DNA from: an uncultured Bacilli bacterium
GTDB lineage: Bacteria; Bacillota_I; Bacilli_A; RFN20; CAG-449
NCBI GenBank assembly: GCA_944332525.1
Contig: CALVKD010000035.1
Location: forward strand, 1-49,430
Length of the DNA stretch: 49,430 nt
Direction of reading: 5' to 3'
Position numbers and translations under genes: made by a program
Shown here: piece by piece, positions 24,171-32,494 of the stretch
Layout of the letters: each line of letters begins with the position of its first letter
Numbering within the stretch: the first letter of the stretch is position 1
The notes under the pieces: model-generated
Database searches by the model: none
Told to the model about the DNA's origin: nothing
What the model saw: the letters and a program-made list of their open reading frames with translations, nothing else

Positions 24171-26077
<1,907 letters not shown>

Positions 26078-26114
26078 TATTTCTTGCCTCCTACATGATA
26101 TTGTAGTCCAATTT

Positions 26115-26141
26115 TTAGCACTATCAATATCTGAGTGCTAA
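26115..26141 (-). promoter_or_regulatory. CIRCE element (HrcA operator) of groESL
   Basis: TTAGCACTA - nine bases - GAGTGCTAA. The only departure from the canonical TTAGCACTC-N9-GAGTGCTAA is one base in the left arm. HrcA repression of groESL under non-stress conditions is expected; hrcA is not in this window. Confidence 0.95.
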
Positions 26142-26215
26142 CTTTTTTATGGGAATTAAAACAGGGTATCATAAATAAAATCCATGCTTATAAACTATAT
26201 GCAGCAATTGTTTTA

Positions 26216-26224
26216 TGTTATAAT
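26216..26224 (+). promoter_or_regulatory. Extended -10 promoter immediately before the 26232 gene
   Basis: TGTTATAAT is a full extended -10. Its expected start of transcription (~26231) falls on or beside the ATG at 26232, and no ribosome-binding sequence is present, so the mRNA may be leaderless. Confidence 0.5.
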
Positions 26225-26231
26225 AACAATA

Positions 26232-26936
26232 ATGAAAAACGAATTAATTTTTAACGAAGAAAGCCTAGATAATCTTCATCAAGAAGCAATCGCTTTGTTT
26301 GCTGAAAAGAAAAAAATTAATTTTAAGGATGACTTCGCCCGTAGCCAATTTAATAAAATTCTTTATTCTAAAACTAATGAAAATAAAATTTATGGCGAAC
26401 TAGGATACTATGATCAAAGCCATAAATATTTTTCTGATTTATCAAAGGTTACGAATATAAAAAAGAAAAAGGTCAAAGGAAATCATTTTGAATATCTATT
26501 TGAAAATAATATTCTCAAATTTTTAATACGTTATAGTAAGGACAATCATCCTTTCTATCACGAATTTAGAAGGCTCGATGGGGAATTTATTTATGTTTTT
26601 GACTATGAAAATAATTCGTTAAGATATTTTACGCATTTTCAAAGAAATAAAGAATATTGGATTTATGATCAAATTAGCGATAACGGACTAACATTAGAAC
26701 GATATATCATTTTCCCGAATGATAATAAAATGATTGAAGTGTTTATTAATTTATTCCTTTATCAAGTGGTTTCGTATGCCCGTAATAAAAAAGGCGAATT
26801 TGTTCAAGATGGAGTTCAACTTTTCCATATGTACCGTAAAAAAGACGATATTGTTAGAGAAAATAAACAATTGAATCCTTTTCCTTTTAATGATAAATTT
26901 ATTGAAGCGATGACTAAACAATATGAAATAAAATAA
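26232..26936 (+). CDS. Conserved-looking hypothetical protein
   Basis: The 234-residue start at ATG 26232 is preferred; an upstream ATG at 26184 adds 16 hydrophobic residues but would lie upstream of the -10 promoter element. The protein is soluble, rich in Asn, Lys and aromatic residues, with no signal peptide or membrane helix. Segments such as YSKDNHPFYHEFRRLDGEFIYVFDYENNSLRYFTHFQRNKEYWIYDQI look like a continuous beta-sheet. No family was recognised. It is divergent from groES across ~150 bases. Confidence 0.6.
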   Translation: MKNELIFNEESLDNLHQEAIALFAEKKKINFKDDFARSQFNKILYSKTNENKIYGELGYYDQSHKYFSDLSKVTNIKKKKVKGNHFEYLFENNILKFLIRYSKDNHPFYHEFRRLDGEFIYVFDYENNSLRYFTHFQRNKEYWIYDQISDNGLTLERYIIFPNDNKMIEVFINLFLYQVVSYARNKKGEFVQDGVQLFHMYRKKDDIVRENKQLNPFPFNDKFIEAMTKQYEIK

Positions 26937-27054
26937 TTCACATTATTTTTGAATTGATTTTTATCAATACAGCGACATAAAATGATTAATCTATTACTTT
27001 TTCCAACTAGTTATTATATATCATGGTATATAATAAAAAGTTTTGGTGGTGTAA

Positions 27055-27585
27055 ATGAAGGTAAAAACAGCTTTTACAATCTTTATTATATTTGTTGTTA
27101 TGTTTTTATCTGGCTGTAATTATTCGTATAATTATTTTTCTAAATATACTGTGGTATTTAAAGAAAATCCAAATATTACAATCTCAAAGTACGTATATGA
27201 AGTCGATTATAATTCGGATTTATCGATTTCTATTTCTATTCCGGTAAATTTAGCAATCACAGATATTAGTTATGATAATTATTCATTGTCTTTAGCCTCA
27301 AGTAATGAATCTAAAAATTTCTATTATTTAACTCTTTACGCGGTAATTTATCCATCGCTTATTACATTTACTGTCGAAGAGGCATCAACGATTACTTATA
27401 TCGGTGAAGAAGATCAAGATGCTATTACTCAAGTAACATCAAATAATCATTTAGCAAGCAATACCTTATCTTGGCAAAATCATTTTTCTAAAGATGGATA
27501 TGTTGCAGTTGGCTGGAATACTTTACCAAATAATCAAGGTGAACATATTGGATTTGGAAACAGAATTTTTCATGATGGAAATTAA
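27055..27585 (+). CDS. Lipoprotein with InlB-repeat-like end, probably truncated
   Basis: The 176-residue protein has a lipoprotein signal with FLSGC (Cys21). The C-terminal part NHFSKDGYVAVGWNTLPNNQGEHIGFGNRI resembles a Listeria-Bacteroides (InlB B-type) surface repeat of the form F-x-x-x-G-Y-x-F-x-G-W-N-T. Such proteins normally carry on for many more residues. Here the frame stops right where sequence from a broken antiporter gene on the other strand begins (about 27586), so the last one to three codons and the stop come from foreign sequence. The gene is probably a 5' remnant left by a deletion. GGTGGTG ribosome site and TATAAT lie upstream. Confidence 0.55.
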   Translation: MKVKTAFTIFIIFVVMFLSGCNYSYNYFSKYTVVFKENPNITISKYVYEVDYNSDLSISISIPVNLAITDISYDNYSLSLASSNESKNFYYLTLYAVIYPSLITFTVEEASTITYIGEEDQDAITQVTSNNHLASNTLSWQNHFSKDGYVAVGWNTLPNNQGEHIGFGNRIFHDGN

Positions 27586-27587
27586 GT

Positions 27588-27816
27588 TCTTTCAAATCTA
27601 AATTAAGTCCACTTCTTGTTAAGACTATTACCAAAGCTAATTGCCTAAGAAGCGGTGAGATTGTTAAAATTTCCGGATCAATAATGTTTAATACAGTCGG
27701 TCCAAGTAATATTCCTAATAAAATCATTCCGACAAAACCTGGAATATGGATTTTGTCGAGAAGTAATCCGATTAGAATCCTCCTAGCAGAATCATTCCTA
27801 ATGAAAGATAAACCAT
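27588..27816 (-). pseudogene. 5' remnant of a cation:proton antiporter (CPA family)
   Basis: On the minus strand an ATG at 27816, behind AAGGGAG, opens MVYLSLGMILLGG and hits a TAA at codon 15. A one-base frame change restores IGLLLDKIHIPGFVGMILLG and then GPTVLNIIDPE and LRQLALVIVLTRSGLNLDL, which are hallmarks of the first helices of CPA1-type Na+/H+ antiporters. The homology stops near 27588, where the lipoprotein gene tail begins, so ~300 or more codons are missing. Both a frameshift and a 3' deletion make it non-functional. It is the target of the fluoride riboswitch just upstream, consistent with a former role in fluoride or sodium tolerance. Confidence 0.82.
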
Positions 27817-27842
27817 AATATTCTCCCTTTCTCTGCTTTGGA

Positions 27843-27896
27843 AGAAAAAAAGCTGATAAATTTCTACAACAAAGCAGTTGTAGAAGTCATCAGCTT
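27843..27896 (-). terminator. Riboswitch expression-platform terminator
   Basis: On the minus strand AAGCTGAT...TTCTACAAC pairs with GTTGTAGAA...ATCAGCTT, followed by seven T. Its 5' arm uses the same bases as the P3 strand, the UGAUG junction and the pseudoknot strand of the fluoride aptamer. Aptamer and terminator therefore exclude each other: fluoride binding should prevent termination. Confidence 0.9.
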
Positions 27897-27936
27897 AATA
27901 AGCGGTTTAGATATAATCTTGGGAGACCTCATTCCC
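27880..27936 (-). ncRNA. Fluoride riboswitch aptamer (crcB motif)
   Basis: Read on the minus strand from 27936: P1 GGGA/TCCC enclosing the loop ATGAGGTC; an optional P2 hairpin AGAT-TAT-ATCT; AAACC; P3 GCTT-ATT-AAGC; the invariant TGATG; then ACTTCTAC. The loop GAGGT pairs with ACTTC to form the pseudoknot (one G-U). Against the known Thermotoga fluoride aptamer the conserved loop, AAAC, UGAUG and UCUAC elements are all kept, while P1, P3 and pseudoknot bases differ in a compensating way. Such switches turn on fluoride exporters or Na+/H+ antiporters. A possible -10 (TATAAA) lies ~15 bases upstream on this strand. Confidence 0.93.
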
Positions 27937-27982
27937 ATTAATGTTTATAATCTTATTTGTTTTGTTATTTAAGAATTATCAT

Positions 27983-31243: not shown

Positions 31244-31270
31244 TAATTATTGATTCTTTAAATTTTTTTT
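31229..31270 (+). terminator. Terminator encoded within the ends of two convergent genes
   Basis: AATTTAAAAGAT (31229-31240) pairs imperfectly with ATTCTTTAAATT (31253-31264), followed by eight T. It covers the last codons of the PucR-type gene and of the TIR gene, whose stops are 3 bases apart. Confidence 0.6.
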
Positions 31271-32494
31271 GAGCTGTTTAACCAATTCATGATGAAGCTT
31301 TTTATTAAATTTTTGAATTTCTTTTGGCATAGATTTATCGATGATTTTAGCGTTTTTTATTATCTTATAATCAATGATATCAATATTTTTAAAGTCTCGG
31401 CTTTGATAGAAATTTAATAAAAGCGCGAAATCTAAACAGCGATAGGCCATTTTACCTTCATCGCGTCTTAAACGGTTTATTCTAGCTTCGCGGCAATTTG
31501 TCCAGTCGCTGGTCCCATCATCTAGATAAAGATAAGGGTCTTCATTTTTAACATCACCATAAAAAATTAAAGTCCAAGAACGGTTAACTGTCGCTTCGTC
31601 GCGGTTTAAATAAATTTTTTGAGCAAAATCATATGGTATAGTATATTCATTTAAGGAAGCTAAACCATAGGCTAATGATTGTCTTTGATAAATATTTTTT
31701 TCGCGTTCATAGAAGGTGATAAGTTTGTCGACATACGAGGTATTTTTCTTATTTAACCTCGTTAAATAATAGATGATTTGCCCTTTTAAAGCATATTCTT
31801 TTCTTCCAGAGATGTTTTCATCTAATTGGATAGCTGAATAAGCAGATAAGAGATTTTGGCTAATCTTATTTTGCTTATTTTCAGGCAAAGCTTCATAGAA
31901 ATCTTTCACATAATTATTAACATCATTAAAATGCAAATCGCTTAGTAAAGCAATAATCTCTTCTTTACCTTGTTCCATTGAAAGCAGTAATTCTTTAGCA
32001 ATTTTAGACAACTCACTTTTTTCTAGATTTTGTTCGTATTCAATTCGGCTATGTTTGTTAATAATTTTTTCTTTGATTTCAGATTGAAAAAGAAAACTAT
32101 CTTCTAAATCTTTTAAAATTTGCTTAACTGCAGCATCAGAGTCATCAATATTCTTCACAAGCGGCGACAGCTGGATATTTGATAAAAGAAATTTAAATTC
32201 ATCATTTAAAGTAAATTTTTCCAAGGTTACTCCAATGATTAATTTATGATAATTTATCGCTCTTTCTAGTTCTTTATTTATCCATTGCGAAGAACAGATA
32301 TCCTTAGTCATGATAAGCAAAAGGCAGTAACAGTTCCGTATTGCCTTTTCAATAATATTCGCGTAATAAGAACCGATTGGAATATCATTTGGAGCAATCC
32401 AAACATCGTAATTATGTCTTTCTAAAAGCTCTTTAAAAGCGAAGGCTTCTTTTTCATTAATTGAGCGATAGCTGATAAAAATATATTTTTCCAT
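31247..32494 (-). CDS. TIR-domain protein with uncharacterised C-terminal domain
   Basis: The 415-residue cytoplasmic protein has a TIR domain at residues ~1-135: YIFISYRS, VWIAPNDIPIGSYY, LLLIMTKD and SSQWINKELERAI, where W71 and E75 are the usual SxxWxxxE site holding the catalytic glutamate of NAD-cleaving TIRs. Residues ~140-415 are mostly helical and unrecognised; a distinctive stretch is YLDDGTSDWTNCREARINRLRRDEGKMAYRCLDF. Bacterial TIR proteins often work in anti-phage defence or signalling. No Thoeris, CBASS or other known partner is nearby. The start follows GGGGGTGAT, 20 bases after the stop of a fucose-isomerase-like gene, so the two are probably co-transcribed. Confidence 0.85.
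   Translation of the reverse strand: MEKYIFISYRSINEKEAFAFKELLERHNYDVWIAPNDIPIGSYYANIIEKAIRNCYCLLLIMTKDICSSQWINKELERAINYHKLIIGVTLEKFTLNDEFKFLLSNIQLSPLVKNIDDSDAAVKQILKDLEDSFLFQSEIKEKIINKHSRIEYEQNLEKSELSKIAKELLLSMEQGKEEIIALLSDLHFNDVNNYVKDFYEALPENKQNKISQNLLSAYSAIQLDENISGRKEYALKGQIIYYLTRLNKKNTSYVDKLITFYEREKNIYQRQSLAYGLASLNEYTIPYDFAQKIYLNRDEATVNRSWTLIFYGDVKNEDPYLYLDDGTSDWTNCREARINRLRRDEGKMAYRCLDFALLLNFYQSRDFKNIDIIDYKIIKNAKIIDKSMPKEIQKFNKKLHHELVKQLKKNLKNQ

Follow-up and report, generated by a model that had tools for sequence, protein, structure and literature searches.

Among the genes that follow fluoride riboswitches, only fluoride exporters form a more frequent class than Na+/H+ antiporters (PMC11139923). 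Riboswitches lying beside pseudogenes have been noted earlier, for switches in antisense placement, and were read as fortuitous (PMC9943018); a literature search on fluoride riboswitches beside pseudogenes returned nothing specific. The locus described here belongs to a 49,430-nucleotide stretch of DNA from an uncultured Bacilli bacterium (the window). Its switch has all the consensus helices, the core, the pseudoknot and the overlapping terminator of the crcB motif (RF01734) but, in contrast to that motif, no intact gene behind it. The leader is near-identical in sequence and layout to the switch-antiporter leaders of the related genomes G066, G051 and G267, whose antiporters, unlike the remnant in the window, are open over ~400 codons. 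As in the antisense-placed cases (PMC9943018), the riboswitch adjoins a pseudogene, which in the present case is not an antisense gene but what the switch itself once controlled. The locus is very probably a bona fide fluoride-ON riboswitch that formerly regulated a CPA-type cation/proton antiporter and now persists as a relic leader after recent loss of that antiporter. In kind it is ordinary, gene decay behind a standard switch, and presents another instance and not a new system. The features are collected in Table 1.

Table 1. Features of the leader, the antiporter remnant and the convergent gene (window positions)
Feature	Position	Strand	Basis or remark
Putative promoter: -35 TTAAAT (27972-27967), 17 nt, -10 TATAAA (27949-27944)	27944-27972	-	putative assignment
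Fluoride (crcB) riboswitch aptamer	27874-27945	-	full match to RF01734
P1 hairpin GGGA-AUGAGGUC-UCCC	27921-27936	-	loop GAGGUC is the pseudoknot 5' side
AAACCG core and P3 hairpin GCUU-AUU-AAGC	27893-27908	-	Rfam match, folding
Pseudoknot 3' side GACUUC	27883-27888	-	pairs with the P1 loop, 6/6
Intrinsic terminator, then U7	27845-27896	-	3' strand of P3 and 3' side of the pseudoknot in common with the aptamer
Ribosome binding site AAAGGGAG	27823-27830	-	sequence
14-codon ORF MVYLSLGMILLGGF, the frameshifted antiporter start	27772-27816	-	leader ATG
Antiporter pseudogene, N-terminal ~78 residues, PF00999 CPA	27581-27816	-	frameshift after codon 13, rest deleted
Convergent putative lipoprotein gene	27055-27585	+	3' end fused to the antiporter remnant

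The Rfam search of the window matched RF01734 (fluoride/crcB riboswitch) on the minus strand over the full length of the model (positions 1-64 of 64), with 49.8 bits and an E value of 6.2e-11, above the gathering cut-off of 34 bits. No other Rfam family reached its own gathering score within the window, and the match is the sole fluoride switch of the 1.7 Mb genome. The covariance model thus bore out the first-pass annotation, which had proposed a crcB-motif aptamer on this strand, and each element named there was found (P1 with its loop, the optional stem, AAACCG, P3, UGAUG and the pseudoknot). Every pair of P1 (GGGA/UCCC) and P3 (GCUU/AAGC) is standard; the optional stem is short (AGA/UCU). 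All six pairs of the pseudoknot are formed, one of them as G-U, and they co-vary among 43 distinct related leaders. The whole leader folds with -30.1 kcal/mol (z -5.5).

The terminator is predicted at -23.5 kcal/mol (z -7.1), a value equalled by none of 200 shuffles. Its 5' arm consists of the 3' strand of P3 together with the 3' side of the pseudoknot, so that terminator and aptamer are mutually exclusive; the same overlap is present in most related leaders. Judged from the sequence, the layout is that of a fluoride-ON transcription switch, in agreement with the earlier proposal. Without fluoride, the leader would form the long terminator and transcription would halt upstream of the ribosome site. 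With fluoride, present as the Mg-fluoride complex, the aptamer and its pseudoknot would sequester the shared strand, the terminator would be blocked, and the antiporter would be transcribed. The aptamer and the overlapping terminator, like the gene loss described below, can be read from the letters themselves; we infer that the leader would bind fluoride and switch.

Behind the leader, a PF00999 match (27775-27581, 35.4 bits) covers profile positions 6-68 of 375, and this is all that is left of the full-length transmembrane domain with its ion-binding site. The antiporter is frameshifted and ~80% deleted, no intact regulated gene follows the leader, and because of the frameshift the leader ATG opens only 14 codons. 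The broken CPA antiporter of the first reading is therefore real. The remnant is 65-74% identical to switch-linked antiporters of the order (e.g. those of G066, G051 and G267), the upper value being that to the intact antiporter of G066 over 65 residues. An origin from one of the four other PF00999 proteins of the genome was rejected (best match only 37.5% over 48 residues). Within the family, the switch-antiporter cassette is confined to two genomes, and for this reason its horizontal transfer was considered; the remnant is 66% identical to the antiporter of G051 and 74% to that of G066, the GroEL proteins are 66% identical in the case of G051, and in G066 GroEL was not found.

The sister genome, G001, is a metagenome-assembled genome of an uncultured Bacilli bacterium (CALVJL01) and is 98% identical to the window over the colinear region. 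It lacks 456 bp of the window (27312-27767), and more of the antiporter is gone than in our genome: 17 in-frame antiporter codons are left, read as MVYLSLGMILLGGILIG in the frame of the intact relatives up to the deletion junction, and the ORF ends after 31 codons. Thus, the lesions of the two genomes are not the same: the frameshift occurs in the window genome alone, and the deletions end at different positions. The convergent lipoprotein gene, which has no Pfam match, meets the antiporter remnant near 27581-27588, and only its first ~86 codons are common to both genomes, with different truncation points. In both, the antiporter was lost, probably through deletions that reached into the lipoprotein gene at their other end, with the frameshift in addition in the window genome. 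The leader would then be a relic that has not yet been erased, as too little time has passed since the loss.

Both assemblies are drafts (98 contigs for the window genome, a MAG for G001), and the loss could be an assembly or strain-mixture artefact, with intact copies held in the population. However, two separate assemblies agree on the locus of the loss but not on its junctions, which lie within long colinear contigs (49 and 165 kb), and the remainder of the antiporter gene, or a full copy, was found nowhere else in either genome. Allelic or assembly effects thus keep a small probability as the source of the loss, and we regard the artefact as quite unlikely.

In both genomes, the aptamer and the terminator are preserved almost perfectly. 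A single one of their 92 bases differs, where the G-U of the pseudoknot becomes A-U and the pairing is kept. The divergence from G001 is ~2% overall, but reaches 5.4% where the lipoprotein gene is common to both and 18% over the 44 bases ahead of P1. The chance of at most one change in 92 bases is 0.04 at the rate of 5.4% and 0.47 at that of 2%. By this comparison, the aptamer and terminator seem only mildly more conserved than a neutral-looking rate, which is compatible with constraint until recently; with just two genomes, 98% alike, the power to detect selection after the loss is low. The near-perfect state would also be expected if the switch were kept by selection after the gene was lost, the fluoride-gated readthrough then serving as a short RNA or hydrophobic peptide or as RNA antisense to the lipoprotein gene. 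There is no terminator-like site on the minus strand from 26000 to 27843, so that a readthrough RNA could continue. But the peptide is unlike between the genomes (14 codons against 31, with another sequence past codon 17 in G001), the truncation of the lipoprotein gene falls elsewhere in each of them, the promoter looks weak with diverged surroundings of its -35 box, and the survey cited above judged the pseudogenes beside antisense-placed riboswitches fortuitous (PMC9943018). Selection for such a product is therefore highly improbable. The first-pass annotation had the switch now controlling a 14-codon peptide and antisense RNA; readthrough would indeed give both, and no evidence of a function for them was found.

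The putative -10 box ends 7 nt before P1, and most related leaders have a -10 box, mostly TATAAT, ~5-10 nt before P1. The best -35/-10 pair agrees with the consensus at 8 of 12 positions in the window genome and at 9 of 12 in G001 (same -10 box, -35 TTGAAT in place of TTAAAT), which is weaker than in most related leaders, and it is absent from the output of a consensus promoter scan. On this consensus argument only, the promoter looks weak, as fits a decaying unit. The spacer that separates P1 from the alsD terminator (27938-27981) differs from that of G001 at 8 of 44 bases, far above the 2% of the surroundings. A further reading holds that the aptamer or the promoter is already non-functional and looks intact merely since the loss is recent. 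With only two close genomes available, little time for decay is sampled, the pseudoknot of the window genome contains one G-U pair, and the promoter boxes are weak, all in keeping with this reading. Against it, the aptamer outscores most gene-linked switches of the order, and the identical GAGGUC/GACUUC pairing is found in G028, where the gene is intact. We consider it unlikely, and retain the relic of a genuine switch as the preferred description.

Across the order, the switch exceeds the cut-off in 52 of 279 genomes. Fifty loci could be resolved, including four that fall slightly short of the cut-off; they were tallied by hand, with loci at the end of a contig omitted. An open antiporter of ~400 residues stands directly behind the leader in 42 of these 50, which supplies the intact counterpart that the earlier reading proposed to look for among the relatives. 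In six (the window genome, G001, G217, G090, G149 and G046) an apparently good aptamer precedes a damaged antiporter; with 36.8 to 50.7 bits, these aptamers score in a range that overlaps that of the switches before intact genes. The other four resemble the window in having an aptamer over the cut-off and a broken antiporter, but their lesions are of other kinds: the antiporter of G217 is cut after about 72 residues and the rest is lost, that of G090 has several lesions, that of G149 (L097) a frameshift and stops, and that of G046 (L004) a single in-frame TAG, possibly a consensus error. The survival of a switch beyond its gene is therefore recurrent in the order, and its first description as unusual finds no support.

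The remaining two of the 50 loci were kept out of the broken-antiporter count. In G246 (L083, G246:C208, about 345-430) the switch has no antiporter and carries the core AACGG instead of AACCG, with a transporter-like ORF about 190 nt past it; this is possibly a dying switch. G068 (L105/L050, G068:C144) has the sole switch seen in the order before a CrcB-like gene, and as the genome is 65% complete, the pair may be foreign or contaminating. G003 and G006 gave matches of 25.7 bits, which fall within a cytidylate kinase-like gene and were discarded as false.

Almost every fluoride switch in the order precedes a CPA antiporter, and a search of 58 relatives found no CrcB/Fluc gene; the antiporter may thus be the principal gene that responds to fluoride in the order. 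The window genome itself lacks CrcB, and its single CLC retains GSGIP, the motif of ordinary chloride CLCs. With the antiporter lost as well, the fluoride response of this genome may be gone entirely. Several relatives share the leader, while the gene is whole in some, recently broken in others and largely erased in yet others; they offer a small natural series for the rate at which a riboswitch decays after gene loss.

Two other features of the window were recorded. A 415-residue protein encoded on the minus strand (31247-32494) has an N-terminal TIR domain (PF13676, 62.4 bits) and weak ThsB and SAVED-TIR matches in PADLOC, and is possibly an anti-phage TIR effector. A CIRCE element with one mismatch (26115-26141; none in 100 shuffles) lies directly upstream of groES-groEL on the minus strand, which therefore has HrcA-type control of its own.
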